Source: a virus. Taken from it: a DNA stretch of 63,756 nucleotides. The position numbers and the translations under genes are program-made. The stretch is from positions 1-63,756 of IMG/VR virus record IMGVR_UViG_3300010391_000044; one strand, 5' to 3'. Under the pieces are notes generated by a model. That model saw only the letters and a program-made list of their open reading frames with translations. It had not been told where the DNA came from and searched no databases. Positions 13,605 through 62,052 of this stretch are shown here, piece by piece (positions within the stretch are counted from its first letter, which is position 1; the number at the start of each line of letters is the position of its first letter).

Positions 13605-13605
13605 C

Positions 13606-17886: not shown

Positions 17887-17928
17887 GAGAATAGCGCGCG
17901 GCCGTCGGGAGAGACGACAATTTTTCGC

Positions 17929-17957: not shown

Positions 17958-17963
17958 TCACAA

Positions 17964-35789: not shown

Positions 35790-35812
35790 GGATTACCTCA
35801 CGGAGATATTCG

Positions 35813-38359: not shown

Positions 38360-38423
38360 CGATACAATAAGCACCGCGGATTTCCACCGTATCCTCGTCA
38401 CACTAGCGAAGGAGGTCGTATGA
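38340..38423 (+). CDS. 27-residue peptide MAKVNPDDTIS...
   Basis: ATG 38340 begins MAKVNPDDTISTADFHRILV then TLAKEVV. The first codons resemble a 36-codon frame at 60326 (MAKRSPDDTIS), and the DNA CCTGACGATACAATA is shared exactly. Either a mini-gene family or a shared regulatory sequence. Confidence 0.45.
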   Translation: MAKVNPDDTISTADFHRILVTLAKEVV

Positions 38424-39043: not shown

Positions 39044-39085
39044 TAGAACACTCACCAACCCAATCCCGGTGATGAGTTAGGGTTC

Positions 39086-44740: not shown

Positions 44741-45715
44741 ATGCCTCTGTCGAACGACACCAGACAGTTGGCCGACGTCGCCGCCACCACGCTGGACACG
44801 TACCTCGGGGACACCGTCGATAACGTCTTCAAGTCGAATCCGCTCACGATTCGGCTGACCACCCGGGAACGCGTCCTCCTGGACGGCGGCGAGAAGATTC
44901 GGCAACCCATCATCTACGACAAGATGAACTCCGACTGGTACGCGGGGCTCGACACCTTCGATATCAGCCGGAAGCAGACCAAGCTGCCGCTGATCTTCGA
45001 CTGGAAGCAGCTCTGGACGAACATCAGCGTGGACGGGTTGACCATGCTGCAGAACGCGGGCGCGGCCAAAGTCATCGACCTGGTCGAGGTCGAGATGGAC
45101 ACGGCCCGCCTGACCCTGGCCGATACCCTCGGATTGGGGATCATGGGGGACGGCACCGGGGTGGTCACCGCGGTCAAGGCGCCAGACGGCCTGCTCCGCG
45201 CGATCGACGACAACACGAACTACGCGACCTACGGCGGCGTCTCCCGTGCCGGCGCGGATGTGGTGGCGACGGCCATCAAGGGCACCTACGACGCCACGGG
45301 CGGGCCGATCAGCTTCTCGGCCGTCAACGCGCAGTTCGGGACGGCGACCATCCAGCCGGAGAAGCCGGACCTGATGGTCACGACCCAGACGCTCTGGAAC
45401 AAGCTGTGGGATCGTGCCCAGCCACAACAGCGCACCCCGTCGGGGCCCGGCTTCGACGATCTCGCGCGCGTCGGCTTCGATGCGATCAACTTCAACGGAG
45501 CGGCCGTGGTCGTGGACTCGCACGTGCAGGCCGGGTACCTCTTCGGTCTGAACACGAAGTACATCGCGTTGGTCATGCACAGTCAGCGCGATTTCCACTT
45601 CACGGGCTTCAAGATCCCGATCAACCAGGATGCCATCGTGGGCCAGATCCTCTGGGCCGGCAACCTGGTGGTGAAGTCGCCGCGGCTGTCGTTCCAGATG
45701 CGGGGGCTGACCTAA
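44741..45715 (+). CDS. Major capsid protein (HK97-fold type)
   Basis: 324 aa. No signal or membrane segments. N-terminus PLSNDTRQLADVAATTLDTY then PIIYDKMNSDWYAGLDTFD and LPLIFDWKQLWTNISVDGLT, with C-terminal VKSPRLSFQMRGL. The pattern of an extended N-arm, E-loop and central helix (VIDLVEVEMDTARLTLADTL) matches this class of phage capsid proteins, and it follows the scaffold. Assignment is by context and composition; no motif is decisive. Confidence 0.8.
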   Translation: MPLSNDTRQLADVAATTLDTYLGDTVDNVFKSNPLTIRLTTRERVLLDGGEKIRQPIIYDKMNSDWYAGLDTFDISRKQTKLPLIFDWKQLWTNISVDGLTMLQNAGAAKVIDLVEVEMDTARLTLADTLGLGIMGDGTGVVTAVKAPDGLLRAIDDNTNYATYGGVSRAGADVVATAIKGTYDATGGPISFSAVNAQFGTATIQPEKPDLMVTTQTLWNKLWDRAQPQQRTPSGPGFDDLARVGFDAINFNGAAVVVDSHVQAGYLFGLNTKYIALVMHSQRDFHFTGFKIPINQDAIVGQILWAGNLVVKSPRLSFQMRGLT

Positions 45716-46927: not shown

Positions 46928-47158
46928 GTGGAAACCGCCACGCGGATCGCCCAGGACCTCGCCGCCGGAAACTCCGAGACGCTGCTCAGCGCCGTCCACT
47001 TTCTCACGCATTGTCATGCCTGCGGGGAGAAGCTGAGTGAGAAGCGCGAGGAAAATCTCGCCGTGGGCTGCAAAGCAGGCCCGCTGATCTTTCACCTGCA
47101 CTGTGCCGATCAACTCCGGCTTACGTTGACCGGTATCATCTTGTACCCGAAAGCATGA
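46928..47158 (+). CDS. Small zinc protein
   Basis: 76 aa from GTG 46928. LTHCHACGEKLSEKREENL, C near 48 and FHLHCADQLRL suggest a Cys/His metal site. The stop overlaps the start of the large glycosyltransferase by 4 bases. Confidence 0.55.
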   Translation: METATRIAQDLAAGNSETLLSAVHFLTHCHACGEKLSEKREENLAVGCKAGPLIFHLHCADQLRLTLTGIILYPKA

Positions 47159-50061
47159 TCTCTTTCTGCTTAATTTCCCGCGATTCGGAGGATACCCTCC
47201 CAGTCTGTCTCCGCTCCATCAAGACAGTTGCCGACGAGATTATCCTGGTGGATACCGGCTCCTCGGACGGAACAGTCGCCATCGCCGAGTCCTTCGGCGC
47301 CAAGATTGGCCGCTACCTGCCGCAGGATCATCCGGACGATTTCCTGCTCATTCCCGACGAGAAAGGCGGCAAGGAACTCTCACTGGCGAACTTCGCCGCG
47401 GCGCGGAATCTTAGCTTCGCCATGGCCAAGTATCCCTGGATCTTTTGGCTGGATGCCGATGACTCACTGGGCGGCCTCGATCATTGGTGGGAGATGCTGC
47501 GGCAGTTCGAGGCGGAACGGATGGACGCTCTCGTCCTTCCTTATGAGTATGCCCGCGATGAACGCGGAAAAGTGATTACGCTCCTCTGGCGGGAGCGCCT
47601 GATCCGGTGGAACCCCGGCTGGCAGTGGGAAGGGCCCGTGCACGAAACGCTCCCCCCGACTGCCAGGCGACTCGCGGCGTTCGAGGGTGTGCGAGTTCTC
47701 CACCATAAGGACAAACGTCGCCGGCCGATCCTGCGGCGCCGCAATCTGGAGATCCTGAAAGCCAAGGCACCGCCGGATGATCCCCGAACGCTCTTCTATC
47801 TCGGCACCGAGTACACGTTCGTCGGGGAGTATAAGGAAGCGGTCACGGCCTTCAAGCGGTACCTGAGCCTGGCCAAGGATGAAGAGGAGACGTACCAGGC
47901 CCTCTTCTACCTTGGGGACCTCTTCCGCGTCGCGGGCCAGTGGAAGGAGGCCATCGAGTATTACCAGCGGGCGATCCTCGTCCGGCCCACGTGGCGAGTG
48001 GCCTATTTCGGGCTCGCGGCGGCGTTCGGACACATCCAGGACTGGGACCGCTGTCTCTACTATCTCGATCAGGGACGCAAGCAACCCGAGCATTCCGGGA
48101 CGCTCCTTGCGCATAATCCGAAGCACGAAGAACTCGGGTGGGCCGAATGGGCCGTGAACGCCTATCGGGCCAAGGGCAACTTACGCGAGGCGCTCCAGGC
48201 ATGTCGGGAAGGCTTGCGGGAGGACCCATTCAACCCGACGCTCAAGGCGGCTCAGGCCGAACTCTCCGCGAAATGGAATGACGCGGAGGGCGCCCGGGCG
48301 GTCACCGAGGCGGCCGAGTTTCTGGTGCGAAAGGATCGGGGGGCGGATGCGGGGCGGCTACTCCGGCTCGTTGGGAAGAGCCATGCGCCAATCACGCGTC
48401 TCATTGAGGAAACGAATACGCTGGCGTCTCTCGATCTTCTGCCCGGAAGGCCGCTGAACTTTGAGTCCCTCGAAAAGGTCCAGTTGGACGCGCGTCTCGT
48501 GTGGATCATGGACATCCTCCGCGGCAACCCTCAATGGTATCGTCTGGCCTTCCCTGGGACAGGGGACTCCGTCTTTGCCCGCGTGTTTTTCTATAACTTC
48601 AAGCATCACATTCAGGCCTGGGATCCGGACGCCGGCGTGGTCTCCGAGATCTCCAAGATACGCGAATGGTCCCATTGGCCTGGGACGTTCTCGGCAGAAA
48701 GCCGCCCGCTTCTCTCCGGGCCATCTGCGCCCGTCCATGTCGTCGTTCTGGCCGGCGTCCTCGAATACTCGCGCGATCCTGCGGCCGTGATGGAGGCCGC
48801 GCGCCGATGGCTGCTGCCTGGCGGATGCGTGATCGTCGCCGTTCCCAACGGTTCGACCTCGTATGCCGGCAAGGAGCCTGACCGAAAGAACTTTCGGCTG
48901 CACCGATTCGTGCCGGACGGGTTGCGAAAACTCTGTAGGACGGATCGGCTTCCCTCCCTTGCCCCGCAACAGGACGCGCCGGGATGGCTCTGCCTGACAT
49001 CGGAGGTGCCGGACGATCGGGCCATTGCCCCGCGGACGATCGGCATCGTCTGCCCGCCGGCCCTGGAGATCTGGGGGCCACACAGCCTGGAGAGCGGAAT
49101 CGGCGGATCCGAAGAATCGGTGATCCAACTTTCCCGGGCACTGGCCCGCCGTGGGCATCGGCTGCTGGTGTACGGTTCATGGCAAGGGATAGACGAGGGG
49201 CCGGACTACCGGGTAGAGTATCGCGATCTGAAGGCGCTCGAAGCACACCATGACGTCTTGGTGGCCTGGAGAGTCCCAGAAGTATTCTCGGGTCGGCGAC
49301 TGCCGAACGCCGAGTGGCTCTGGCTGTGGTTGCACGATACGATCGACGAGGCACGCCTCCTCCCCCTTGCCGATCACTTCGACGTCATCCTTGTTGGGAG
49401 TCACTTTCACGCCTCCCTATACCCCAAACTCTCGGAGTTGACCCGTGTCCAGCGCTACGGCGTTGATCCTGGGCAGTTCACGAACGGCCACATCCACCGG
49501 GATCCCCACAAATTTATCTGGACGAGCTGTCCAACCCGTGGGCTAGAGACTCTGCTCGACATCTGGCCGCGCATCCGAGAGAGTCTGCCAGACGCGACGC
49601 TCCATGTGTTCTATGACTTCGGCAACTTCGACATCCTGCGGATGCGGGCCCAGGGAGAGGAAGCGGAGCGCCTCCAGGCGCTGCGGACTCGCATCCGATC
49701 GAAGGCGGAGCAGCCGGGCGTGATTTGGCCAGGACGGGTGGGCCAACCACTGATCGCGCAGGAGATGCTGTCCGCCGGTATCTTCGCCTACCCGACGAAC
49801 TTTCCCGAAATCATGTGTATCAGTGCCGTCAAGGCGCAGGCCGCCGGCTGCTGGCCGGTCTTCTTTCCTGTCGCCGCCCTCTCCGAGACCATCGGATGGG
49901 GCTGGCAGAGTAGGGCAGAGAATTTCGTCGAGCACTGCGTTGCCGCTGCGACAGGCGCGAAATCTGAGAGTGAGCGAGAAGCCATGCAGGCCTGGGCCAA
50001 GGAGGTGTATAGTTGGGACCGCGTCGCGCTCGGGTGGGAAAAGTTGATGCGCGGGATGTAG
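47155..50061 (+). CDS. GT2-TPR-methyltransferase-GT4 multidomain glycosyltransferase
   Basis: 968 aa. Residues 1-200: GT2 fold (EIILVDTGSSDGTVAIA, WIFWLDADDSLGG). About 205-370: TPR helical repeats (RTLFYLGTEYTFVGEYKEAV, YQALFYLGDLFRVAGQWKEA). About 470-600: a methyltransferase-like region (HVVVLAGVLEYSRDPAAVME, LLPGGCVIVAVPNG). About 630-968: GT4 fold (GIGGSEESVIQLSRALARRG, NFPEIMCISAVKAQAAGCWP). The GT4 acid pair normally written E-x7-E reads E-x7-K, so this half may be weak or inactive. Likely adds sugars to the virion or host surface. Confidence 0.82.
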   Translation: MISFCLISRDSEDTLPVCLRSIKTVADEIILVDTGSSDGTVAIAESFGAKIGRYLPQDHPDDFLLIPDEKGGKELSLANFAAARNLSFAMAKYPWIFWLDADDSLGGLDHWWEMLRQFEAERMDALVLPYEYARDERGKVITLLWRERLIRWNPGWQWEGPVHETLPPTARRLAAFEGVRVLHHKDKRRRPILRRRNLEILKAKAPPDDPRTLFYLGTEYTFVGEYKEAVTAFKRYLSLAKDEEETYQALFYLGDLFRVAGQWKEAIEYYQRAILVRPTWRVAYFGLAAAFGHIQDWDRCLYYLDQGRKQPEHSGTLLAHNPKHEELGWAEWAVNAYRAKGNLREALQACREGLREDPFNPTLKAAQAELSAKWNDAEGARAVTEAAEFLVRKDRGADAGRLLRLVGKSHAPITRLIEETNTLASLDLLPGRPLNFESLEKVQLDARLVWIMDILRGNPQWYRLAFPGTGDSVFARVFFYNFKHHIQAWDPDAGVVSEISKIREWSHWPGTFSAESRPLLSGPSAPVHVVVLAGVLEYSRDPAAVMEAARRWLLPGGCVIVAVPNGSTSYAGKEPDRKNFRLHRFVPDGLRKLCRTDRLPSLAPQQDAPGWLCLTSEVPDDRAIAPRTIGIVCPPALEIWGPHSLESGIGGSEESVIQLSRALARRGHRLLVYGSWQGIDEGPDYRVEYRDLKALEAHHDVLVAWRVPEVFSGRRLPNAEWLWLWLHDTIDEARLLPLADHFDVILVGSHFHASLYPKLSELTRVQRYGVDPGQFTNGHIHRDPHKFIWTSCPTRGLETLLDIWPRIRESLPDATLHVFYDFGNFDILRMRAQGEEAERLQALRTRIRSKAEQPGVIWPGRVGQPLIAQEMLSAGIFAYPTNFPEIMCISAVKAQAAGCWPVFFPVAALSETIGWGWQSRAENFVEHCVAAATGAKSESEREAMQAWAKEVYSWDRVALGWEKLMRGM

Positions 50062-50462
50062 TCTCGCTCTCGGCAAGAGAAGTCACCCGGTGGCTCGCTC
50101 CGTGGCCGATTCAGTTGCGCGGGGGCCGGTTCCACCTGGAGATCCTGCCCATCTCGCGGTGTGAGCGATTCTACGCATTCTGGAAGACGGGGCCGCGAGC
50201 CGTCTACCGCAGCATCGCGTGGTGGGCGAAGATGGCGGCCAACTACAAGGCACCGGGAGAACAACATTACCTTCACCAAATTGCTCGGGACCGGATTCCC
50301 GTCCTGCGCTCGCTGAGTATTGTCGTGATTCACCGAGACCGTAAATGGATCGTGGTGGACGGGAATCATCACCTGATCGCCCTGGCCATGGTGCGGCGGC
50401 ATCGGTTCGCGGGGAAATCGGCCTTAATCAAATACCTTGGAGTAGTCAGGAGGAAGCCTTGA
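50013..50462 (+). CDS. ParB/Srx-like small protein with TTG start
   Basis: 149 aa. IVVIHRDRKWIVVDGNHHLI followed by ALAMVRRHRF is a ParB/sulfiredoxin-like DGxHxxxA motif, found also in small kinases and DNA-binding proteins. TTG 50013 is chosen because AAGGAGG lies 7 bases before it, overlapping the GT gene. Next gene follows by TTGA overlap. The link to glycan genes is by position only. Confidence 0.6.
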   Translation: MGPRRARVGKVDARDVVSLSAREVTRWLAPWPIQLRGGRFHLEILPISRCERFYAFWKTGPRAVYRSIAWWAKMAANYKAPGEQHYLHQIARDRIPVLRSLSIVVIHRDRKWIVVDGNHHLIALAMVRRHRFAGKSALIKYLGVVRRKP

Positions 50463-51583
50463 AACTTATTCACGTGTTGGGCAGCACGGCCCACGGCACG
50501 CTCGGTCCGGCAGACATCCTCACCGGCAATCGCGGCGTGACGGGGAGCGAGCAAGCGCTCCTCTTCCTGGCCCGCGAATCTGCCCGCCGGAATCATCGTG
50601 TCGTCGTCTATCTGCCGACCGAGAGGGAGACGATCGACGGCAACGTCTGCTATTTAGATTACCGGAAGGAGTACCCGCGGTTTCGCGAGATGGACACCGC
50701 CGATGTCGTGATCTCCTGGCTTTCCGCGGATAATCTGCTCCGCTGCCGACCCGATCAACTCCGCATCCATTCCATCCAGATCAACGATTGGTTGCTGAAC
50801 TCGAACCGAGATCGGACCTATCCGCATGTGGATGTGTTCGTCTGCGTGAGCCAAGCGCAATCTGAGTGGCTCTGGAAGGCCCACGACGCGCCTTATGCCC
50901 GCGACCGGATCGAGATCGTCCCGAACGGGGTGGACAGTGCCCGCTTCGCCCGAGAGGTCAGCCGCACCCCTCGCCGATGCATCTACAGCTCGTCGCCGGA
51001 TCGCGGGCTCCATTGGCTCCTCTACTTCTGGCCCGAGATTCGCCTACGCTATCCCGACGCCACGCTCCACGTCTACTACGAGGTCGAGCAATGGGTGGCG
51101 GCGACCCAGGGACTGGCCACGGAGATCGGCCAGCGGGCGCGATTCATCCAGCGACGCCTGGCCGCGCTCCAGGGGCACGGCGTGATCCTCTCCGGCGCGG
51201 TGAGCCCGATGGCCGTGGCGGACGCGCTGCTCCAAAGCGATCTCTTCCTCTATCCTTGTGATCCAGTCTCCTCGACCGAGGGCTTTTCCGTGAGCACTAT
51301 GGAGGCCTGCGCGGCTGGTTGTCTGCCGATCCTCACGGATGCGGACGCGCTCGGGGAAATCTACAAGGAGAGTGGCGGGTTTCTGGTGACCCGGGGCGAG
51401 GGCCGAGAGTGGATCGACGAATATCTCGCGACCGTTCTGCAGGCGATGGACCAGCCAGCGAGCGCATTCGTGGAACGGCGGCGGGCCTGCCGGCGATTCG
51501 CCGAGCGGTACGATTGGACCTATGTCGCGGATCAGTTCCATGCCATGCTAAACAGGAGATTGGCAAAGAAGAACAACACTTAG
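50459..51583 (+). CDS. GT4-family glycosyltransferase with TTG start
   Basis: 374 aa from TTG 50459, overlapping the preceding TGA, with CAGGAGG upstream. GVTGSEQALLFLARESARRN (donor-binding), IEIVPNGVDSARFAREVSR, YSSSPDRGLHWLLYFWPEIR and EGFSVSTMEACAAGCLPILT, which holds the E-x7-E pair of GT4 enzymes. It transfers a sugar from a nucleotide-sugar donor. It is the single-domain counterpart of the C-terminal half of the preceding fusion and keeps the canonical glutamates. Confidence 0.85.
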   Translation: MKLIHVLGSTAHGTLGPADILTGNRGVTGSEQALLFLARESARRNHRVVVYLPTERETIDGNVCYLDYRKEYPRFREMDTADVVISWLSADNLLRCRPDQLRIHSIQINDWLLNSNRDRTYPHVDVFVCVSQAQSEWLWKAHDAPYARDRIEIVPNGVDSARFAREVSRTPRRCIYSSSPDRGLHWLLYFWPEIRLRYPDATLHVYYEVEQWVAATQGLATEIGQRARFIQRRLAALQGHGVILSGAVSPMAVADALLQSDLFLYPCDPVSSTEGFSVSTMEACAAGCLPILTDADALGEIYKESGGFLVTRGEGREWIDEYLATVLQAMDQPASAFVERRRACRRFAERYDWTYVADQFHAMLNRRLAKKNNT

Positions 51584-52134
51584 GAGTAAGTTGACTTCTT
51601 CATAAGCAGAAGTGGTGTAGACTTATGGTTCCCTTGCTTTCCGTATCTCTTATTAAGTCTAGTCAGTTCCCCCTTGATGCGCCTCCAGTCATGGATGGGA
51701 ATCCCGCCTCCCAAGCAATTTCCTGGTCCCTTGACGAGCTGTCTCGCCTGAAGGCACAGTTCAGCCTGTCTCTTCTTAAGTTTCAGGTAAGGCAAAATGA
51801 GCCGCAGGACTATCTCGCCTTCCAAGCTCCAGACTCTCCAGGCGTATTGCGTTCGTTCCCTGTCCCAATGACCGGGTTTGGGTCTTGCACGTCTGATCGT
51901 TCCAAGCCCTCCAAGGGCTTTCCATATCCATACGAGTGCCTCACGTGCCACCTGTGTCACCTCAACTCGAATATACATACCAGCGACCTCAACTTGATTT
52001 CCCCTCCTAGCGTAGGCGACAATACTTCCATCACCGTCGATCATACCTGCAACCCAGGCAAGATCACCGACAGATCCGTGCCTGCCAGGCTTCCTCTTTA
52101 TGTATCTCTTGAAGTACCGACGCATGTTGATCAT
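51580..52134 (-). CDS. LAGLIDADG homing endonuclease
   Basis: 184 aa. LAWVAGMIDGDGSIVAYARR is the LAGLIDADG helix with catalytic Asp; one motif, so it would act as a homodimer. Remaining blocks (WIWKALGGLGTIRRARPKPG, WRVWSLEGEIVLRLILPYLK) are typical. Minus strand, convergent with the glycosyltransferase, AT-richer than its neighbours. TTGACT and TATCAT (18-base spacer) lie so close upstream that the mRNA may be leaderless at the second ATG (52125). Confidence 0.88.
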   Translation of the reverse strand: MINMRRYFKRYIKRKPGRHGSVGDLAWVAGMIDGDGSIVAYARRGNQVEVAGMYIRVEVTQVAREALVWIWKALGGLGTIRRARPKPGHWDRERTQYAWRVWSLEGEIVLRLILPYLKLKKRQAELCLQARQLVKGPGNCLGGGIPIHDWRRIKGELTRLNKRYGKQGNHKSTPLLLMKKSTYS

Positions 52135-52183
52135 GATACTATATTACGTCGTATGAAGTCAATCATGATGAAAGGTCAAGCGG

Positions 52184-52609
52184 ATGCCACGCCGCATCCT
52201 GCTCCTGGAAGATAGCCGGAGTCTCGCCGCTCCGGTGATCCGGGCGTGTGTCGGCCTGGGCTGGGAGATCGTTCATGTGGAGAATAGCGTGGAAGCCCTC
52301 CGGGCGCTGGCGGGCCAGAGTGCGTTCGATGCCCTGGTGGTGGATTATAACCTACCCGCATTCCGCGAGGAGGGGCATATCCTCAGCAATCTGGAACGGA
52401 TCCCCCGGAAGTATCCCTTCGAGGGGGACGCCTTCCTCGCCATAGCCAAGTGTATGACCGACCGCTGCCCGAAGATCATCATCGCGTTCTCGGGGATCCC
52501 GGGGAATAACGACTGGCTGATGAAGGCGGGGGCTATCGGGCGGATTGAGGGGAAGGATGCGGATGGATTAACGCGGATGCTGGCGACGCTCTTCTCGGAG
52601 GCCTCGTGA
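52184..52609 (+). CDS. Stand-alone response-regulator receiver domain
   Basis: 141 aa, only a receiver fold: acidic pair E9 D10 (LLLEDS), phospho-acceptor D54 (LVVDYNLP), S103 (IIAFSGIP), and K124. All residues needed for phosphorylation are present. No output domain. Its stop overlaps the start of the radical SAM gene (GTGA), so the two are coupled; a regulatory or chaperone role for that enzyme is inference. Confidence 0.8.
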   Translation: MPRRILLLEDSRSLAAPVIRACVGLGWEIVHVENSVEALRALAGQSAFDALVVDYNLPAFREEGHILSNLERIPRKYPFEGDAFLAIAKCMTDRCPKIIIAFSGIPGNNDWLMKAGAIGRIEGKDADGLTRMLATLFSEAS

Positions 52610-54435
52610 AGCGCCAGGTGCTGCTCGCCCAGGTCAACCAGCGCTTCGGGCGGAATACCTTTCTGCCCTTCAGCGTCGGGTGCCTGCAGGCCTATGCGCA
52701 AGCGCAGTCGGATCTCACCGAGGCGTACGAGTTCCTCCCGCTGCTATATCTCCGTGAGGATCCCGAGGCCATCGTGAACCGGTCTCCCCGAGTGGACGTG
52801 CTGGGGCTCTCCAGCTATATCTGGAACGAACAGTGGAATCTGGCCCTGGCAAGGGCGGCTCGTGAAGCCTGGACGGATTGCCTGGTTGTCCTGGGCGGCC
52901 CGCAAGTGCCTGAGCGAGACGCTGAACAGTTTCTCCTCCGCCATCCAGAGGTGGACATACTGGTCCACCATGAGGGCGAACAGAGTTTCTCAGCCATCTT
53001 GCACGAAGGGCTCAAGGAACGCCCGCATTACGGTATCATCCCAGGCCTGAGTTACCATGGGCGCATCGACAGCCTCGTCCCTCCGGAAGGGACAACGATC
53101 TTCAGCGGGGCTGCACGCCGGATCGAGAACGTCTCCGAGTTACCTTCGCCCTACCTTGCCGGCGTGTTCGACCAGATGCCCTGGGCCGACTACGACTTCC
53201 ATGCGACACAGGAGACCCACCGGGGCTGTCCCTACGCGTGCACTTTCTGCGACTGGGGCTCGGCGATATTCACGAAGGCCCGGGCCTTCGACGATGATCG
53301 CCTCCAGCGGGAACTGCATTGGATCGGGCACCATGACATCGAACTTCTTTACAACGCCGATGCGAACTACGGCCTCCTGCCTCGGGATACCGCCCTGACG
53401 CAGTATCTCACCGATGTCAAGAAGCTCTACGGATTCCCCAAGCAATTCCGCGCCGCCTACGCCAAGAACGCGAATGAGAAAATCTTTGAGATCGCCAGCA
53501 TCCTGAACGAGGCGGGGATGAGTAAGGGGATCACGCTGAGCCTCCAGAGTACGGATCCGCACACGCTGGAAATCATCAAGCGCAAAAACATCGCCATGGA
53601 GGACTTCGAGAGTTGGGTGAAGCGGTACGAGGCGTCCGGGATCGGAACGTACACCGAGTTAATCCTTGGGCTGCCCGGAGAGACCTACGAGAGCTTCGCC
53701 GACGGCATCAACCGCGTTCTCTCGGCCGGACAGCACCATGGGCTTCACGTGTATCTGTGCATGGCCCTGCCGAACTCCGAACTGTCCGACCCCGCTTACA
53801 TCGCCGAGCACGGGATCCGGACGGTACGTGGACCACTCCTGCAACAGCATGCCCCACCCGATCCGACGGCCGAGGAAATGGCGGATATCGTTATCGCCAC
53901 CAAGACGATGCCGGAAGCGGACTGGCTGCGAGCCTTCCTCTTTGCGTGGGCGGTCCAGACGTTCCATTGCCTCGGGCTCACGACGCAGGCCGCGATCGCT
54001 GCGGTGCAATCGGGATCGTCCTATCGTCGGTTCTACGAGGGGCTGCTCGACTTCTTTAATGAACGCCTCTTCGGGAATAGGATCGGAGATGAGTTACTTC
54101 GGACAACGGCGCTCGCCGCAGGCGGGATGGCTGGAGGCCCGTGGGGAACAGTGATTCGCGGGTATGGAGATGTCGTATGGCCGACCGAAGAGGCGACATT
54201 TCTGTGGCTGGTGAACGATATCGAGACAGTCTTTGTCGAACTCGCGTTCTTTCTTCGTTCGAGATATGGAGAGGACTCATGGCTACCGCTCAAAGAGGCC
54301 TTGGACTGTGACAGGCTGCATCTGATCACGCCAACCGATCCGCCGTTCAACGGGGACCGGGAACGGTACGCCCGCGAAACGCTCTGGTATTCAAGGAAAA
54401 GCCAGGGCAAGCGTAAAGCAGCAGTACATGACTAA
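52606..54435 (+). CDS. B12-binding-type radical SAM enzyme
   Basis: 609 aa from GTG 52606. The N-terminal Rossmann-like region (FLPFSVGCLQAYAQ, VLGLSSYIWNEQW, LVVLGGPQVPER) matches the cobalamin-binding-like domain of radical SAM methyltransferases, although the DxHxxG base-off motif is not seen. The radical SAM core has THRGCPYACTFCDWG (C-x3-C-x2-C), plus LSLQSTDPHTLEIIKRKN and LILGLPGETYESF. The C-terminal about 200 residues are an unassigned extension. Likely modifies a sugar, lipid or peptide. Confidence 0.85.
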   Translation: MKRQVLLAQVNQRFGRNTFLPFSVGCLQAYAQAQSDLTEAYEFLPLLYLREDPEAIVNRSPRVDVLGLSSYIWNEQWNLALARAAREAWTDCLVVLGGPQVPERDAEQFLLRHPEVDILVHHEGEQSFSAILHEGLKERPHYGIIPGLSYHGRIDSLVPPEGTTIFSGAARRIENVSELPSPYLAGVFDQMPWADYDFHATQETHRGCPYACTFCDWGSAIFTKARAFDDDRLQRELHWIGHHDIELLYNADANYGLLPRDTALTQYLTDVKKLYGFPKQFRAAYAKNANEKIFEIASILNEAGMSKGITLSLQSTDPHTLEIIKRKNIAMEDFESWVKRYEASGIGTYTELILGLPGETYESFADGINRVLSAGQHHGLHVYLCMALPNSELSDPAYIAEHGIRTVRGPLLQQHAPPDPTAEEMADIVIATKTMPEADWLRAFLFAWAVQTFHCLGLTTQAAIAAVQSGSSYRRFYEGLLDFFNERLFGNRIGDELLRTTALAAGGMAGGPWGTVIRGYGDVVWPTEEATFLWLVNDIETVFVELAFFLRSRYGEDSWLPLKEALDCDRLHLITPTDPPFNGDRERYARETLWYSRKSQGKRKAAVHD

Positions 54436-55156
54436 GATAATCCGCTGTTCGCGATGTGATCGGCGCGGGCACCATGCAGCACGTGGCCTGTGCACTACGT
54501 GCTATTCGGTCGATTGGCGAACCGCTCACGGACATCCACCTCATCCAAGGAAACCTCGCGTAAGGGCGTGTGCCGGTTGCAATGATGTATCCTTTATCAA
54601 CGCTTTGGACCTATGCCGCCGATGCTATTCAACTAAGCGAAGAAAAGGGAATCCGGAAGTCAGCCGGGCCTATTGCCGGAAGTGGAACGCTCGAAACAAG
54701 AAGTACAATCGAATGAGGAATGCTCGACCAGATCGCAGAGAATTACGGGCCCAGTATGAAAGATCCCATAGACCAGAACGGAATGGTCAAAAAAGATCAA
54801 GGTATGTAGCAGATAGAAAAAGGCAGATCGCACGAGTGCGCCAATGGCAGAAGACTCATCCCGAGCAGGTACGTGCGCTTTGCCGAGAGCGATATAAGCG
54901 TCGCCGATTTGTCATGCTCGGATTGCCAACAACGCTGACCCGCAGCGAATGGGAGAAACTAAAGATCGCCTATGGGCATCGCTGTCGATACTGCGGCAGA
55001 AAGCCGAAGCGGCTGGATCAGGATCATGTAATACCAGTCACCAAAGGTGGGGGGCACACGGCGCAAAATATTGTTCCTGCTTGCCGATCATGTAATAGCT
55101 CCAAGGGGAATCGTCACTCTTGGCCGCCAATACTGTTGGCGCAGAAACCCGCATGA
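54428..55156 (+). CDS. HNH endonuclease inside the glycan island
   Basis: 242 aa. Two N-terminal zinc knuckles (CSRCDRRGHHAARGLCTTCY and CAGCNDVSFINALDLCRRCY), Arg-rich middle, then the HNH core CRYCGRKPKRLDQDHVIPVT, with NIVPACRSCNSSKGNR. Overlaps both neighbours by a few bases. Homing-type. Confidence 0.88.
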   Translation: MTKIIRCSRCDRRGHHAARGLCTTCYSVDWRTAHGHPPHPRKPRVRACAGCNDVSFINALDLCRRCYSTKRRKGNPEVSRAYCRKWNARNKKYNRMRNARPDRRELRAQYERSHRPERNGQKRSRYVADRKRQIARVRQWQKTHPEQVRALCRERYKRRRFVMLGLPTTLTRSEWEKLKIAYGHRCRYCGRKPKRLDQDHVIPVTKGGGHTAQNIVPACRSCNSSKGNRHSWPPILLAQKPA

Positions 55157-55803
55157 CCCACATCACGATCCACGAGCGCGAATTTCGCGGGGCGAAGTTC
55201 CGGTTCTACGAGACCGAGCATGGGGCCTCCTTCGATACCTTCAACGATGAGCAGGAGATCCGGGATGCGTGGTGGCACATCGAACCCGGGCAGGTGGTGA
55301 TCGACGTCGGGGCGGGGATGGGCTCCTACAGCCTGCCGGCCTGTGCGCTCGGCGCGGAACGGGTGATCGCCTTTTGCCCGCAGCAACCCGATCTGAATCT
55401 GCTTCGCGCCAATGTGAAGCTGAATGAATTTCAGCAGTGCGACATCCTGGAGACGGGGCTTGCCGATCAGCCAGGGTATATCGCCGTCGCCGGCAACGCG
55501 ATGCGGTTCTCTCTGAACCCGCTGCCCGGAGCTTTCCCAGTCTCCTCCTTGGACGCTCACATGCTAATCCTCGACCGGCTCGACTGGCTGAAGATCGACG
55601 TCGAGGGATTCGAGCGGGAGGTCCTCCAGGGAGCCGAGTCCACGATCCGACAGTACCGTCCTACACTCTTAGTTGAGTATCACCTCTTCATGGATCCGTC
55701 GATCGAACTCCAATGTCGGCCGATCTTGAAGGCGCTCGGCTACACCGGGACCCTCCGGCGCTACCACGCGATCGCCCACGGGCTGTACCGGCCGGAGGCC
55801 TAA
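55153..55803 (+). CDS. FkbM-family methyltransferase
   Basis: 216 aa. VVIDVGAGMGSYSLPACALG is SAM motif I; RVIAFCPQQPDLNLLRANVK and LDWLKIDVEGFEREVLQGAE (LKIDVEGFE) are FkbM signatures. These enzymes O-methylate sugars or related hydroxyls. Coupled (ATGA) to the HNH gene. Confidence 0.85.
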   Translation: MTHITIHEREFRGAKFRFYETEHGASFDTFNDEQEIRDAWWHIEPGQVVIDVGAGMGSYSLPACALGAERVIAFCPQQPDLNLLRANVKLNEFQQCDILETGLADQPGYIAVAGNAMRFSLNPLPGAFPVSSLDAHMLILDRLDWLKIDVEGFEREVLQGAESTIRQYRPTLLVEYHLFMDPSIELQCRPILKALGYTGTLRRYHAIAHGLYRPEA

Positions 55804-56411
55804 TGGTCGCCGGCTACGTGGCCTTCCAACTCAAGCACGTCGAGCTGCCCGCCCTTAACGTGGGCGTTGGGGCGAATCCATCCAATCTCAACGGTCCCGG
55901 CGTTGTGCACCTGGATCTGGATGTGTGGAATGTCCCACGGTTTGTCCAGGGCGACGCGCACGCTCTCCCCTTTCGATCCGGCAGCTTCCGATCCTGTCTG
56001 CTCGGCGATGTCCTGGAGCATGTCCTCGATCCTGTCCAGGTCCTCCGAGAATGCGGCCGTGTAGCAAGGAAAGTCGTCTGCACCGTGTTCGAGGAGTGGC
56101 GGATCGGGCCTCCTGGGCGCCATCTCGAAGCCGGGCACGCCCTCTACGCGCCAGTGGAATCACACTATCAGCCCTTCCGGGACTCGGGTCAGTGCCAGGT
56201 GCGCTATTCGGAGGAGCAGCTCTCACACTCCCCGCACATCTGGGCTTTCACCCTGCCGATGTTGCAGGACATGATCTCGCAGGCCGGATTGCGTATCCTC
56301 GCGCTAGAGACCGATTGCCCGGGTGTGCACGAGGGACATCCGATGAATAACTGGCTCTTTGTCCTCACGAGGGATCCATGGGCTCACCGACCCCAACCGT
56401 CAGCGTCCTGA
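55803..56411 (+). CDS. Class I SAM methyltransferase
   Basis: 202 aa. ALNVGVGANPSNLNGPG (motif I), VHLDLDVWNVPRFVQGDAHA, LPFRSGSF, CLLGDVLEHVLDPVQVLREC (post-motif), as in Methyltransf_11. Substrate unknown; a sugar methyl or carboxyl is plausible by context. Confidence 0.8.
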   Translation: MVAGYVAFQLKHVELPALNVGVGANPSNLNGPGVVHLDLDVWNVPRFVQGDAHALPFRSGSFRSCLLGDVLEHVLDPVQVLRECGRVARKVVCTVFEEWRIGPPGRHLEAGHALYAPVESHYQPFRDSGQCQVRYSEEQLSHSPHIWAFTLPMLQDMISQAGLRILALETDCPGVHEGHPMNNWLFVLTRDPWAHRPQPSAS

Positions 56412-58063
56412 CCTGCGCCTTCAGACCGGGAGGTTTGGACATCACCCTGGCCGGCATGCGGGACCAGACCTTCGCCGAGCCGTTCGAGCTGATCATCGTG
56501 GACCGGCGCTACGAGTTTCGCCACACGCGCGTCCTAGCCGTGGCCAATCAGTACGACGTGCCATGCATCCACGTGCCGGAGTACCGCCGCAACGGCAAAT
56601 GGGCCTGTATCGGCAGTGCCTGGAACACAGCCATGGCACTTGCGCGGGGCGAGGTACTGATCTTTTTGCAGGACTACGCCTACGCGCCGCCGGGGTGGAT
56701 CGAGGCTCACGTACACTGGCACACACAGCACTCCTGGCGCTACATCGTGGGGCCGTACACCTACCTCGGGCTCCCGCCCCTGGCCCTCAAGCCTCCGTAC
56801 ACGACCGAAGGGTTCGACTTCTCCGGGGATCGGCTCCATTGCACCGAGCAGGGCCTCGTCCTCCAAGGCAAGGTCCTCGACGAAATGTATGCGTTCCAAG
56901 CGGGTCCTTTCCAGCCGGCGTGGCTGCCGGATCTGCCCCGGCTCGATGCCCCGCAGGATCCCCGGAGCCATGCCGACGGGGCGGAGATTCCGGATACCCA
57001 CATCCACATCAAAAATGAATCTATTCGCCGTGAGGTCGCCTACCGGCTGAACGGACTCGACGAGCGGCTCGACCGCGGCAAGGGGCCGTTGGACCTCGAC
57101 TGGGGCCTGCGTCTCAGCTCCATCGGCGCGAAGATCCTCTGGGACCCTGCGACGCACACGCCGGTCATCAATAGCCGTATGATTGTTCCGACCATGCCCT
57201 GGGGGACCATGGACGAGCGTCTGGAGGGTCGGTGGTCCTGGCAAGACGGACTTGCCTACAATGCCCGCCGCCGCGCCGAATGCGCCCACGAGGCGCCCGA
57301 AGCGAAGAATCCGGCCCGGCTGCGCACGCTTTCCCTGGCCTTGGAGGAATGGCGGAACGACCCGCCGATTAACGTCGCTCACCTGGAGGTCCCGGATGCC
57401 CTCTACTGGGGACCGACCGTGATCTGGCCGGATACGCCATACCATCCTGCGCGACAGGCAAGCATTCCAGCACCGGCGCCTGGTCCGCCGGCAGACGAGA
57501 CAGCCCGGATCCTGGCCCCGTGGCAATCGAAGGGAGATCCGCCTCCACCGGGAGGATTCGGGCCTATGTGCCGCGTCTGTGGAATATCCAGTTGGGTGGA
57601 AATCGCTGGGGGCCGTGCCGCCGACACGTATCACCCGAACGTAGACCAAATCGCCGACCCGAATGTGGATATCGTCGTGGATCTGGAAGGCGGCAAACTC
57701 CCACTCCACGATGGACACGCGGAGCGGGTGAAAGCGATACATGCCCTTCAGCATCTCAGTCGGGATGGCGCCCGGGCGATCCTGCGAGAGGCCTACCGCG
57801 TCCTCATCCCTGGTGGCAGCCTCTACATTATGATCGGTGACGGGGACTTTCTGATCGAGCGGCTGAAGGAGGACGGGTTCGTGGAGGCGTGGATCAGTTG
57901 CCTCTATCACGGACCAGACGTATCCGATCAAGGTCATCATCGGTGGATATACACTTTCGACACCATGAAGGCGGAGCTGGAGGTCGCAGGTTTCACGGAC
58001 GTGGAGCACAGGGGCTGGTACAATAATTGGGAAATCAAGATGGAATGCCGAAAGCCATTCTAG
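56378..58063 (+). CDS. GT2 glycosyltransferase fused to a methyltransferase
   Basis: 561 aa. Residues 1-260: GT2 (VSVLTCAFRPGGLDITLAGM, FELIIVDRRY, VLIFLQDYAYAPPGWIEAHV). About 400-560: methyltransferase-like with zinc-type CRVCG, then DIVVDLEGGKLPLHDGHAER, HALQHLSRDGARAILREAYR, VLIPGGSLYIMIGD. The middle is linker-rich (PAPAPGPPADE). Second transferase-plus-methyltransferase fusion in this island, suggesting addition of a methylated sugar. Confidence 0.82.
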   Translation: MGSPTPTVSVLTCAFRPGGLDITLAGMRDQTFAEPFELIIVDRRYEFRHTRVLAVANQYDVPCIHVPEYRRNGKWACIGSAWNTAMALARGEVLIFLQDYAYAPPGWIEAHVHWHTQHSWRYIVGPYTYLGLPPLALKPPYTTEGFDFSGDRLHCTEQGLVLQGKVLDEMYAFQAGPFQPAWLPDLPRLDAPQDPRSHADGAEIPDTHIHIKNESIRREVAYRLNGLDERLDRGKGPLDLDWGLRLSSIGAKILWDPATHTPVINSRMIVPTMPWGTMDERLEGRWSWQDGLAYNARRRAECAHEAPEAKNPARLRTLSLALEEWRNDPPINVAHLEVPDALYWGPTVIWPDTPYHPARQASIPAPAPGPPADETARILAPWQSKGDPPPPGGFGPMCRVCGISSWVEIAGGRAADTYHPNVDQIADPNVDIVVDLEGGKLPLHDGHAERVKAIHALQHLSRDGARAILREAYRVLIPGGSLYIMIGDGDFLIERLKEDGFVEAWISCLYHGPDVSDQGHHRWIYTFDTMKAELEVAGFTDVEHRGWYNNWEIKMECRKPF

Positions 58064-58083
58064 TACAAGTCTGAGGAGCCATC

Positions 58084-59277
58084 ATGGCCAATCTCGCCGT
58101 CTTGGGAATTGGGAAGGTTGGGCTTCCTCTCGCCTGCCATTTTGCGTCCATCGGCCACACCATCGTCGGGGTGGATACCAATCCTAAAGTCATCGAGCTG
58201 CTCCACGCCGGAGGAGAGCCACTCCCCTGGGAGCCAGGGACGAGTCAAGCTGACCGGCTGGGTATCGTCTTCACCACGGAGTTACGCCTCGCCCTCGATG
58301 GCGCCGATGCCGCGGTCATCATCGTCCCGACGCCACAGATGGGGGACCGGCTCGACGATAGCGTGGTGGAGAAAGCGGTGCGGGAGGTCTGGACGCATGA
58401 TCGGGATCTCCGCATCTGCGTGGCGTCCACCTTGGATCCTCGAAGTCGGTGGCTCCTGCACAACCTTCGGGCCGTCTATACCCCCGTGATGATTCGCCTG
58501 GGCCATGTCCGCGAGGACCTGCGAGACGCGAGACTCTTCCTGCTCGGCGTGTACGGCGGACGGGACCTGGTCCAATGGGCACGCGATCTGTGGTATCCGT
58601 CCGGACTTCCTGAGAGCGTGCACGAGGTGAACTCTGGTCCAACGACGATTGCCGTGGCCAAGCTGGCTATCAACGCCACCTTGTCCTCGCGCATCGCCTG
58701 GGCGAATGATGTGGCGGAGCGGGCGAGGAGTTTCGGGGCGGACCCCGCAGTCGTCCTGGAGACAGTCGGACTTGATCCCCGGATTGGCAACGCCTATCTG
58801 CGCGCCGGCTGGGGACCGGCCGGCCCCTGCATCCCGAGAGATATGGACATCTGGTGCTCGGTCAAGGGCCTCGGGCTGGCCGAGATCATGCTGGCCACGC
58901 ACCGCGTCTCGAATCGGCAGATCCTCGACCGCGTCGAGCAGTTCGTGCGCGCCCTGGCCATTGGCGCGCCCAAGGTCCTCATCCTCGGCGCGACCTACAA
59001 CCCGGGGGCGATGGATGTGACCGAGTCGCTCGGGCTGGCGGTCTTTCGCGTCGCAATCGCCAGGGGATGGCAGCCGCACCTCATGGACCCAGCCCTCCTG
59101 CACTTCGGGGAAAGCCTGCTCCAGGAAATTGGGGCCATGCGCTCCGATCACCGCTACGCCCAAGAGTACGTGACCGAATGGGCCGATGCAGTTATCCTGG
59201 CCACCCACTGGCCGGAGTTCCGCGCCCTCGATTTCGGCTCGAAACCCTTCCTCGATCTCACCTGGGAGCAGGGATAG
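58084..59277 (+). CDS. UDP-glucose/GDP-mannose 6-dehydrogenase family protein
   Basis: 397 aa. N-terminal NAD fold (LAVLGIGKVGLPLACHFASI, GVDTNPKVIELL), central VAKLAINATLSSRIAWANDV (catalytic Lys region), GPAGPCIPRDMDIW (catalytic Cys) and C-terminal LILGATYNPGAMDVTESLGL. It oxidises the C6 of a nucleotide sugar to a uronic acid, a donor for the neighbouring glycosyltransferases. Active residues are kept. ATG after GAGGAGCCATC. Confidence 0.88.
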   Translation: MANLAVLGIGKVGLPLACHFASIGHTIVGVDTNPKVIELLHAGGEPLPWEPGTSQADRLGIVFTTELRLALDGADAAVIIVPTPQMGDRLDDSVVEKAVREVWTHDRDLRICVASTLDPRSRWLLHNLRAVYTPVMIRLGHVREDLRDARLFLLGVYGGRDLVQWARDLWYPSGLPESVHEVNSGPTTIAVAKLAINATLSSRIAWANDVAERARSFGADPAVVLETVGLDPRIGNAYLRAGWGPAGPCIPRDMDIWCSVKGLGLAEIMLATHRVSNRQILDRVEQFVRALAIGAPKVLILGATYNPGAMDVTESLGLAVFRVAIARGWQPHLMDPALLHFGESLLQEIGAMRSDHRYAQEYVTEWADAVILATHWPEFRALDFGSKPFLDLTWEQG

Positions 59278-59279
59278 CC

Positions 59280-60296
59280 ATGTGGAAAAACATGAAGGTA
59301 TGCGTTACCGGGGGTGCGAGTTTTATCGGATCCCACCTGGTGGAGGCACTTGTCCAGCGTGGGGCGCAGGTCTTCGTGGCTGACGATCTGAGCAGCGGAA
59401 AGTTCGCCTATATCGAGCCGCTTCTCGCGCAAGGCCTGATCAAGTTCTACCGGGAGGATCTTCGGTGGAAGAAGTTCGCCCAGCATGCCGTGAAGCACCG
59501 GGACATCGTCTTCCATCTTGCCGCCGATCACGGGGGCCGGGGCTACGTGGATCTGCACCAGGCGGCGTGCGCGACCAACCTTGGGCTCGACTCGGCTGTG
59601 CTGCGGGCCTGTCTGGAATCGCATGGGCCGGGGAAGGTCATCTTTGCCAGCAGCGGCTGTGTCTACCCGAATCACCTCCAGACCGATCCGACGAAGGAGC
59701 TGTACCTCACCGAGGACATGGTCGGTCCGCCTTATGACCCAGACGGCGCCTACGGGTGGGCGAAGCTCACGGCCGAGCGAACGCTCCGGTGGTTCCACCA
59801 GGACCACAAGCTGCGCTCGGCCTCCTGCCGGATCTTCACATGCTACGGGCCTCGCGGGAAGGAAGACCACGCCATCATGGCGATGATCGCCCGGGCGTTT
59901 ATCCGTCAGATCCCCTTCGAGATCTGGGGGGACGGAAGCCAGATCCGCAACTGGACCTATGTTTCCGATATCGTGAATGGACTGCTCCTGGCGGCGGAGA
60001 AGATCGACGACGGCACGGCGGTAAATCTCGGGACGATGGAACGGACGACGGTCCTCCAAGCCGCGGCACGGGTCTGCACCCTCCTCGGCCACCAGACCGG
60101 GATCTACGCCCGCCCCGACATGCCGACGGGCCCGCTGAACCGCGTGGCGGATAACACCCTGGCCTCCCGGCTCCTCGACTGGAGGCCCGCTGTGGCCTTC
60201 CAGGATGGCCTCCGGACGACGATTGAGTGGTACGTCGAGCATCATCGGCAAGACGACGTCCGGCAGCGTCTGGACCGTGCCCTAACCGAGCGGTAA
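59280..60296 (+). CDS. NAD-dependent epimerase/dehydratase (extended SDR)
   Basis: 338 aa from ATG 59280. CVTGGASFIGSHLVEALVQR (Rossmann), FHLAADHGGRGYVDL, FASSGCVYPNHLQ and the catalytic YGWAK (Tyr and Lys); IWGDGSQIRNWTYVSDIVNG and VNLGTMERTTVLQAA are typical of sugar epimerases and dehydratases. It acts on a nucleotide sugar, probably after the dehydrogenase. Confidence 0.88.
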   Translation: MWKNMKVCVTGGASFIGSHLVEALVQRGAQVFVADDLSSGKFAYIEPLLAQGLIKFYREDLRWKKFAQHAVKHRDIVFHLAADHGGRGYVDLHQAACATNLGLDSAVLRACLESHGPGKVIFASSGCVYPNHLQTDPTKELYLTEDMVGPPYDPDGAYGWAKLTAERTLRWFHQDHKLRSASCRIFTCYGPRGKEDHAIMAMIARAFIRQIPFEIWGDGSQIRNWTYVSDIVNGLLLAAEKIDDGTAVNLGTMERTTVLQAAARVCTLLGHQTGIYARPDMPTGPLNRVADNTLASRLLDWRPAVAFQDGLRTTIEWYVEHHRQDDVRQRLDRALTER

Positions 60297-60325
60297 GCCT
60301 CGAATTCCTCTGCCATCCTCCCTCT

Positions 60326-60436
60326 ATGGCGAAGCGGAGCCCTGACGATACAATATCCCCCAAACGTCTGATACCAGTGGGGGACTTGTATGCGCGTCTG
60401 CTTCATCATTCCACCAAGTCCTTTTCTGCTCAATGA
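60326..60436 (+). CDS. Possible 36-residue peptide MAKRSPDDTIS...
   Basis: ATG 60326, sharing MAK-x2-PDDTIS and DNA CCTGACGATACAATA with 38340. Overlaps the next gene by 47 bases. May be a mini-gene or a regulatory relic. Confidence 0.35.
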   Translation: MAKRSPDDTISPKRLIPVGDLYARLLHHSTKSFSAQ

Positions 60437-61721
60437 CAAGAGTCTTCCCTGGCTTGGCCCCCTCTGGGTCGCCGCCTGCCTGCGCCAGCGCGGGCATACG
60501 GTCAGCGTCCTCGATCTCGCTGGCAATCCCGACTACCTCCAATTCGCCGCCATGCACGCCGAATCCGTGGGTGCCGACGTGTACGGGCTCACGGCCACGG
60601 CCCCAGACTACCCTTTGGCGAGGAAAATCCTCCGGTCGATCCGGCTGATGCGGCCCAAGGCCCGCGTCATCCTCGGGGGTGCCCACGCCACAACCAGCCC
60701 AGCGTCCTGCCTCCAAGACGAGTGGGACGCGGTGGTCGCCGGGGACGGGTTCTTCGCCGGGGAACGGGCACTGACGGAGAACGGCCTCATCTCGGCCTCG
60801 AAGCGGGGCGAGATCGTCGAGGACATTGATTCACTCCCGTTCCCGGCTCGTGACCTCGTCGATCTCGACTCCTATCACTTCCAGATCTGCGGGGAACGCT
60901 TCACCTCGGTGATGACCGCCTTCGGCTGCCCCATGGGGTGCACCTTCTGTTGCGGCCGGGACTTGTACGTGTACCGGAAGCTCCGGGCCATGACCCCGAA
61001 GCGGGTCCTGGCGGAGTGGGACACCATTCGGGCCGATTACCCGCAGTTCCGGGGGATCATGGACTACTCGGACGAGTGGAATATCCCGGCAGCCCGGGCG
61101 ATCGAGCTGGCCGAGGCGATCGCTGCACACCCCACGAAGTGGATGATCCGCTGCTTCATCAAGGCGGAGCACTTCACGCCTGACGTGGCCTCCGCCATGG
61201 CCCGGGCGGGGGTCGTCGAGGTCCTCACCGGGGTCGAGAGCGGTTCCGATCGGATCCTCAAGGTGATCAAGAAGAATACCTCCTGGGAGATCAATGGGCG
61301 GGCCCGGCTCCTGGCGAAGGCCCACGGGATCCGGTTCAAAGCTGCGACGATGGTCGGGCACCCGACCGAAACGCGGGAAGATGCGCTCCTGACGAAGGAC
61401 TGGTTGCTGACCTTCCAGCCAGACGAATTCGACGTGACCGTGTTCCAGCCGATGCTGGGCAGTCCGATTGCCGATCGGCCGGATCGGGAAGGGCGGGGAC
61501 TCTTCTTCGACACGCCCGACGGGAATGTGCGGCCCTATAAGACCATCCCCGGGCAGTACGAGGCGAGCGTCCGCACCGAGACGCTGAGCGGCGCCGATTT
61601 GCTGGCCCTCAGGGACGAGATCGACCGCGACGTGCGGGAGGCCTTGGGGCTTGCCCCGTTGGTCGGTCCGAATCTCTACGAGGCCTCCATGGGCCAGCGG
61701 CCCGTGCTGTCCAGCCTCTAA
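60390..61721 (+). CDS. B12-binding-type radical SAM enzyme
   Basis: 443 aa. N-terminal cobalamin-type domain (RVCFIIPPSPFLLNDKSL, VYGLTATAPDYPLARKILRS, RVILGGAHATTSP) followed by the radical SAM core FGCPMGCTFCCGRDLYVYRK (C-x3-C-x2-C), LTGVESGSDRILKVIKKNT and MVGHPTETREDALLTKDW. C-terminal tail ends LYEASMGQRPVLSSL. Second such enzyme in the island; about 170 residues shorter than the other. Confidence 0.86.
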   Translation: MRVCFIIPPSPFLLNDKSLPWLGPLWVAACLRQRGHTVSVLDLAGNPDYLQFAAMHAESVGADVYGLTATAPDYPLARKILRSIRLMRPKARVILGGAHATTSPASCLQDEWDAVVAGDGFFAGERALTENGLISASKRGEIVEDIDSLPFPARDLVDLDSYHFQICGERFTSVMTAFGCPMGCTFCCGRDLYVYRKLRAMTPKRVLAEWDTIRADYPQFRGIMDYSDEWNIPAARAIELAEAIAAHPTKWMIRCFIKAEHFTPDVASAMARAGVVEVLTGVESGSDRILKVIKKNTSWEINGRARLLAKAHGIRFKAATMVGHPTETREDALLTKDWLLTFQPDEFDVTVFQPMLGSPIADRPDREGRGLFFDTPDGNVRPYKTIPGQYEASVRTETLSGADLLALRDEIDRDVREALGLAPLVGPNLYEASMGQRPVLSSL

Positions 61722-61737: not shown

Positions 61738-62052
61738 ATGTCTATGCAGATCAGTGTCGCCGGCAACTTCGCGATCTTCGACCACGAGACGATCACGGTG
61801 AGCAGCACCTCGATTGGCGCCACGGCCTCGAAGATCAATCCCGGTGGTGGTGGCAATGCTTATTACGCGCTCTTCACCGTGGAGACCGTCGATGTCCGCT
61901 TCTGGCTGGATGGGACCGCGCCGACATCGACCGTGGGAACCAAACTGTCCGTCGGGCAGAACCTGGAGATCCACGGGAAGGAAAACATCGCGAACGTCCG
62001 GTTCATCTCCACGGGGGCGGACGCGACGCTGCAGGCGAACTACGGGCGGTAG
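61738..62052 (+). CDS. Small virion-type beta protein
   Basis: 104 aa. Ser/Thr/Gly-rich strands (SVAGNFAIFDHETITVSSTS, GKENIANVRFISTGADATLQ). Typical of tail-tip or fibre-module small proteins. ATG after GACAGGAGTCACCG. Confidence 0.6.
   Translation: MSMQISVAGNFAIFDHETITVSSTSIGATASKINPGGGGNAYYALFTVETVDVRFWLDGTAPTSTVGTKLSVGQNLEIHGKENIANVRFISTGADATLQANYGR

Follow-up and report, generated by a model that had tools for sequence, protein, structure and literature searches.

It is chiefly from antibiotic pathways that TokK-type cobalamin-dependent radical SAM C-methylases are known. Among phages, the closest described systems are the host-recognition cluster of pelagimyophages, a variable island of the structural region carrying glycosyltransferases, a UDP-glucose 6-dehydrogenase and radical SAM cassettes (PMC7029224), and the glycosylated capsids and tails of mycobacteriophages, for which phage-encoded glycosyltransferases and a demonstrated virion glycan are described (Freeman et al., 2023, as cited in PMC12619734). 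Cassettes of glycosyltransferases and radical SAM enzymes in phage structural regions, as well as virion glycans, are therefore already known. The mycobacteriophage system is not known to include sugar-nucleotide or radical SAM genes.

The locus analysed here differs from the pelagimyophage cluster, which in these T4-like myophages lies with tail fibres between VrlC and gp14, in having a P22/Mx8-type head and an island placed after the capsid gene. As far as the citing account describes them, the mycobacteriophages have in common with it the phage-encoded glycosyltransferases and, as a proposal for the present locus, the virion as acceptor. The apparent novelty lies in recognising a TokK-fold enzyme, in its recurrence among unrelated phages, either where portal and protease genes meet or behind the capsid gene, and in the fuller sugar pathway of a P22/Mx8-type phage. 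A search of mostly open-access literature on phage radical SAM or B12 enzymes with glycosylation found no paper making this link.

Head module and layout of the enzyme block

The window, meaning the whole stretch of DNA analysed, is a linear IMG/VR record of 63,756 bp. It is probably incomplete, later tail genes being cut off because the record is a linear contig, and neither an integrase nor a tRNA gene nor a DNA polymerase was recognised in it. Its early region encodes an SPFH/Band 7 protein, a HerA/DUF87 ATPase, a VWA-domain protein and an SNF2 helicase (654-1718, 9564-11228, 11825-12478, 20938-23274). The head module comprises the following features:

36126-37997, plus strand: terminase large subunit (phrog_2, E 1e-12; 65% to contig L002 over the last 218 residues)
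39086-40792, plus strand: P22-type portal protein (PF16510, E 6e-15; phrog_156, E 1e-28)
44741-45715, plus strand: major head protein, Mx8/BUCT555 type (phrog_9953, E 1.7e-57; 16 phage records)
46642-46692, plus strand: hairpin terminator closing the head module (-28.3 kcal/mol; z -3.3; U-rich tail; UCUCUUUU)

The same terminase-portal-capsid module is found in contig L002, with main proteins 60-74% identical, and that contig stops just past the capsid gene. A wide version of the window capsid alignment was too divergent for use as a search query. A consensus scan of the window for promoters and terminators performed at chance level, and the terminator is supported by folding instead, since only 1 of 200 shuffles was equally stable.

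Past the terminator, two ORFs of 74-76 aa come first, followed by the enzyme block (47155-61721) and by a repeat-rich virion-type gene:

47155-50061, plus strand: GT2-TPR-(methyltransferase-like)-GT4 fusion, 968 aa (PF00535, TPR, weak PF08242/PF13489, PF13692)
50459-51583, plus strand: GT4 glycosyltransferase (PF13692, E 2e-10; phrog_2170)
51580-52134, minus strand: intruding endonuclease-type gene (phrog_5046, E 1.7e-16; LAGLIDADG-like motif AGMIDGDGS, by eye)
52184-52609, plus strand: receiver-like (REC-like) protein (weak response-regulator matches, E ~1e-4)
52606-54435, plus strand: rSAM1, predicted TokK-type cobalamin-dependent radical SAM methylase (TokK 368 bits, E 4.9e-109; model TM 0.87)
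54428-55156, plus strand: intruding HNH endonuclease (PF01844, E 3.5e-12; phrog_1035; GC3 0.49 vs ~0.77 in neighbours)
55153-55803, plus strand: FkbM-family methyltransferase (PF05050, E 3e-13; TIGR01444)
55803-56411, plus strand: class I SAM methyltransferase (PF08241, E 8e-9, over cutoff)
56378-58063, plus strand: GT2 and class I methyltransferase fusion, 561 aa (PF00535 at cutoff; PF08241 over cutoff)
58084-59277, plus strand: UDP-glucose/GDP-mannose-type dehydrogenase (PF03721, PF00984 and PF03720 over cutoffs; UDP-glucose dehydrogenase 3vtf, E 6e-35)
59280-60296, plus strand: extended SDR, GDP-mannose-3,5-epimerase/GDP-fucose-synthase-like (PF01370, E 1e-44; GME 125 bits)
60390-61721, plus strand: rSAM2, B12-binding radical SAM enzyme (PF04055 and PF02310 over cutoffs; nearest solved relative AprD4)
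62231-63754, plus strand: repeat-rich virion-type protein, open at the contig end (repeats match a MW202601 protein)

A sequence-only reading of this DNA had placed nine enzyme genes between the capsid-gene terminator and the next virion gene; all nine were found at or very near the positions it gave, and both the hairpin and the flanks were confirmed. The enzyme genes, namely those for two multidomain glycosyltransferases, a GT4, a sugar dehydrogenase, an SDR, FkbM and class I methyltransferases and two radical SAM enzymes, all lie on the plus strand in one closely packed block, with intergenic gaps of -34 to +93 bp except for a single 600-bp gap holding the opposite-strand endonuclease gene. 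The first of them overlaps the preceding ORF by 4 bp (ATGA), while the GT4 gene has a TTG start with a strong RBS, a longer start at 50345 being possible. The REC-like gene shares 4 bp with the rSAM1 gene, and the two are likely translationally coupled through this overlap. A small ParB-like ORF was also noticed by eye inside the block. Downstream, 61744-62052 had no match among 50,697 phage records and is a candidate virion gene by position. The sole phage match of the repeat protein beyond it was a MW202601 protein encoded between capsid and gp10-like genes, to which its repeats are 45% identical over 43% of the protein.

In GC content and codon usage the block equals the rest of the window, the codon-usage distance between island and virion genes (0.129) being close to that between virion and early genes (0.132). 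GC3 ranges from 0.72 to 0.85 in the enzyme genes, from which the HNH gene deviates. This match indicates that the block is resident and no fresh bacterial insert.

Predicted chemistry of the encoded enzymes

The strongest assignment in the block is that of rSAM1, predicted from sequence and from its modelled fold to be a B12-dependent C-methylase of the TokK type. In a phmmer search of the PDB, the match to TokK (34% identity) was followed by one to CysS (168 bits), with no further match at E 0.01. The AlphaFold model (pLDDT 88.5) superposes on TokK over its full length (599 columns) and on CysS with a TM of 0.78, the next structures reaching at most 0.50. The CxxxCxxC motif for the [4Fe-4S] cluster is present (C208/C212/C215), and W73 and W217 align with W76 and W215 of TokK, of which the former lies below the cobalt and the latter bridges SAM and cobalamin (PMC9692996). 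The cobalamin-binding domain scores just under its cutoff (PF02310, 31.5 vs 32.1 bits), with the overall TokK fold retained, and membership in the KedN5 subfamily was not indicated (NF033712, 252 bits against a cutoff of 700). With TokK, CysS and KedN5, the class B cobalamin-dependent radical SAM methylases, rSAM1 thus has in common the CxxxCxxC motif, the cobalamin-binding fold, the C-terminal domain and the equivalents of W76 and W215, whereas that group belongs to antibiotic gene clusters and rSAM1 to a sugar and virion context. Given the TokK-type assignment, methylation would probably take place on carbon as well as on oxygen. BFVD already contains viral proteins with this fold, deposited under generic names (TM 0.77).

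The second radical SAM enzyme has as its nearest solved relative, in both sequence (73 bits) and fold (TM 0.66, top match), the radical SAM diol dehydratase AprD4. The distance is considerable, however, as rSAM2 scores 85.5 bits on the AprD4 family model NF033070 against a curated cutoff of 500, and its own model is of medium quality (pLDDT 73). Diol dehydration was accordingly set aside as a function to be named, and AprD4 is kept as the nearest resemblance.

Among the transferases, clear assignments are the FkbM domain (77.9 bits on TIGR01444, cutoff 37.7) and the two class I methyltransferase domains. In the middle of the 968-aa glycosyltransferase, the stretch resembling a methyltransferase is weak and by eye is without the glycine-rich motif I, so that it may be degenerate.

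The dehydrogenase possesses the three domains of its family and keeps the catalytic Cys in GPAGPCIPRD. It scores 169.5 bits on the NDP-sugar dehydrogenase subfamily TIGR03026, under the cutoff of 189.8, and for this reason no substrate sugar was assigned. The SDR is about equally similar to UDP-glucose 4-epimerase (131 bits) and to plant GDP-mannose 3,5-epimerase (125 bits). It retains the YxxxK pair and, in SSGCVYP, the Cys that is catalytic in GME, but of the C145/K217 pair that together with YxxxK marks GDP-mannose 3,5-epimerases, His replaces Lys217. GDP-fucose synthase uses a Cys/His pair. Such a pair is present in the SDR, although its score on the GDP-fucose synthase model NF047922 is 73 bits against a cutoff of 500. 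The pair makes C3/C5 epimerisation a reasonable guess, and the SDR appears to resemble GDP-mannose 3,5-epimerase and GDP-fucose synthase more than a uronic-acid 4-epimerase.

Judged by profiles, by catalytic residues and by the genes around cellular relatives, the sugar-nucleotide, glycosyl-transfer and methyl-transfer chemistry predicted for the block is well founded, which bears out the enzyme families named in the sequence-only reading. That reading had further proposed a methylated uronic-acid-type sugar, with radical SAM chemistry on the sugar or on a carrier. Methylated sugar chemistry stands; the uronic-acid type becomes one option only, the SDR being nearer to the GME/GFS group, and the radical SAM step is narrowed for rSAM1, by sequence and fold, to a TokK-type cobalamin C-methylase.

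Related loci in phages and cellular genomes

Searches for the gene order in related phages, as had been suggested from the sequence, found glycosyltransferase and radical SAM cassettes in the head modules of a Mu-type phage (L029) and of marine T4-like phages, and a block of glycosyltransferases and methyltransferases in the podovirus ctxSa4. Against 50,697 sequenced phage records, rSAM1 gave two partial matches of ~25%, while two scans of IMG/VR yielded 80 and 42 further loci; neither rSAM2 nor the 968-aa glycosyltransferase found a relative in IMG/VR as a single query. The cluster is not confined to bacterial genomes, and its phage setting is certain.

The genes of L029 run in the order portal, UDP-sugar dehydrogenase, phrog_8198 protein, radical SAM enzyme, GT2, head protease, scaffold and capsid, and its radical SAM enzyme is the sister of rSAM1 in the tree (support 98/92), the pair standing apart from a large aquatic clade. 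By eye, the phrog_8198 protein looks virion-like. In marine T4-like contigs, all 17 loci that show both portal gp20 and the prohead protease have one or two radical SAM genes between the two, and 16 of them also hold the glycosyltransferase phrog_2835; these loci represent one lineage with one inherited arrangement, not 17 events. A T4 portal was found in 30 of 39 parent records. The cassette of L175, L166, L188 and other such loci also includes a 220-aa protein beside the glycosyltransferase and TokK-like enzymes. Sugar-nucleotide genes are absent from most marine T4-like loci within 10 kb of the radical SAM gene (1 locus each), which suggests that the substrates there may not be sugars. Several genes of L111 (DIJY01000041, 'Bacillales bacterium UBA5632') are 77-90% identical to T4-like loci, and this MAG contig is phage sequence placed in a reference genome by a binning error.

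Larger aquatic phages, of whose parent records 11 of 50 carry a T4 gp23 capsid gene, concentrate sugar genes near the radical SAM gene: per 100 kb, epimerase families number 6.9 within 5 kb vs 1.4 at 5-10 kb, and dehydrogenase families 4.7 vs 0.6. Radical SAM proteins are numerous around these genes in the large aquatic phages L030-L108 (169 in 62 loci), where SGNH-like, carbamoyltransferase-like and amidinotransferase-like proteins recur by eye; the families resemble natural-product gene sets, and some loci lie downstream of tail-fibre genes. Another viral contig, L161 (IMGVR_UViG_3300021197_002023, 860-18058), contains an O-antigen-like cluster of glycosyltransferases, WecB-like and GT11-like proteins (by eye), a TokK-like radical SAM enzyme, a UDP-sugar dehydrogenase, several SDRs and DegT-like aminotransferases.

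The podovirus ctxSa4 (MW202718) carries a GT2-TPR-GT4 fusion, more glycosyltransferases and methyltransferases directly after its capsid gene and ahead of a gp10-like gene. It differs from the window in its capsid family (16% identity), in a fusion without the methyltransferase-like middle domain, and in having no radical SAM, dehydrogenase or epimerase gene annotated. In L004 (MW202497, 35151-39470) a fusion of this kind is apparently split by a gene annotated groEL (35734-37302) into an N-terminal part at 37767-39470 and a C-terminal part at 35151-35741. None of 12 published phages of the window's own capsid family has an annotated glycan block after the capsid gene. The block is therefore not essential to that head, and the notion of an island tied to the capsid family as a whole was dropped.

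Relatives of rSAM1 also occur in cellular genomes (13/399, 5/292 and 3/287 in whole-genome searches), some of them 41-42% identical and hence as near as the closest phage. A count of 217 viral vs 5 cellular stretches had pointed to a phage-specific radical SAM family; this reading was given up in view of the whole-genome matches, the probe letters having been biased. The closest cellular relative of rSAM1 (L156, 42%) has as neighbours RfbF-, RfbG- and RfbH-like genes, epimerases, a GT2 and a flippase-like gene, in what, judged from these genes, is a surface-polysaccharide cluster. That of rSAM2 (L215, 34%), the closest found, adjoins RfbF-, RfbG- and FkbM-like genes. The Rfb and CDP-sugar labels in both were read from the sequences, in L156 by eye except where there are blast matches.

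Proposed virion decoration and its alternatives

Glycosyltransferase genes within the virion gene block, taken as one mark of a virion glycosylation system, were found in the window, L029, ctxSa4 and the marine T4-like loci. The proposal that the block decorates the virion with a C- and O-methylated glycan, to which we give about an even chance, draws mainly on location, namely on the joint recurrence of glycosyltransferases and radical SAM enzymes in unrelated head modules. From the genes we infer the virion as acceptor, the substrate, the sugar and the order of steps as follows. Transcription of the block would accompany or directly follow that of the head genes. The dehydrogenase and the GME/GFS-like SDR would supply an oxidised and/or C3/C5-epimerised nucleotide sugar, from which the GT4 and the two multidomain GT2 proteins would assemble a short glycan. 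One or more methyl groups could then be put on an unactivated sugar carbon by rSAM1, with methylcobalamin that must come from the host, while the FkbM and class I methyltransferases would supply O-methyls, and rSAM2 may dehydrate, epimerise or methylate the sugar in a further radical reaction. The glycan would be accepted by a nearby virion surface protein, for which the head protein, the products of the small ORFs behind it and the downstream repeat protein are candidates.

The main rival to virion decoration is that the block alters the host surface (O-antigen or capsule) against other phages or against re-adsorption of progeny to debris, its position reflecting late transcription only. We regard this as possible rather than probable. 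It is the published reading of the glycosyltransferase and UDP-glucose dehydrogenase genes in the pelagimyophage structural-region island (PMC7029224), and it gains from the likeness of the block enzymes to those of polysaccharide clusters, in which the cellular radical SAM relatives sit, and from the combination of a radical SAM enzyme, a dehydrogenase and SDRs in the O-antigen-like cluster of L161. Nevertheless, no flippase, polymerase or O-acetylase was recognised in the window, and timing on its own hardly accounts for the recurrence of such insertions at the portal-protease boundary of two unrelated head types.

That the radical SAM enzymes have as substrate the side chain of a protein or a metabolite bound to a carrier, and not a sugar, with the glycosyltransferases working separately, seems unlikely. 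The substrates of TokK and CysS are pantetheine-bound, as the structure titles state, the structural neighbour MgmA methylates glutamine, and the marine T4-like loci mostly have no sugar-nucleotide genes near their radical SAM genes; against this, both the window and its sister L029 combine a radical SAM enzyme with a UDP-sugar dehydrogenase and a glycosyltransferase, and no carrier protein or NRPS/PKS gene was recognised in the window.

Hypermodification of the phage DNA with a methylated sugar is very improbable. DNA glycosylation by phage glycosyltransferases is given as possible in work cited in PMC12619734, but the glycosyltransferase profiles matched by the block are of the LPS or protein type, and no hydroxymethylase, thymidylate-synthase-like or base-kinase gene was recognised in the window, whose annotation and genome are incomplete. 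Equally hard to credit is a bacterial polysaccharide cluster that was captured recently, or joined by misassembly, and does nothing for the phage, for although all the families are common in bacteria and the record is a metagenomic contig, GC and codon usage fit the phage genes, endonuclease genes interrupt the block, and comparable blocks occupy comparable sites in other phages.

Beyond virion decoration in this one phage, we suggest tentatively, and with some doubt, that unrelated head architectures may have independently placed TokK-like radical SAM methylases and glycosyltransferases in their head modules for a B12-dependent, C-methylated virion modification, the window being the complete form, which would supply its own sugar nucleotide as well. 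If functional, TokK-fold enzymes and glycosyltransferases of head modules would imply that the particles of some phages are chemically elaborated by the phages themselves, which would affect recognition and adsorption as well as host dependence on B12; were the B12-dependent reading true, virion modification would depend on the vitamin B12 of the host. Metagenomic phages often carry this enzyme set, sequenced isolates hardly ever, and it offers a handle for finding C-methylated glycans.
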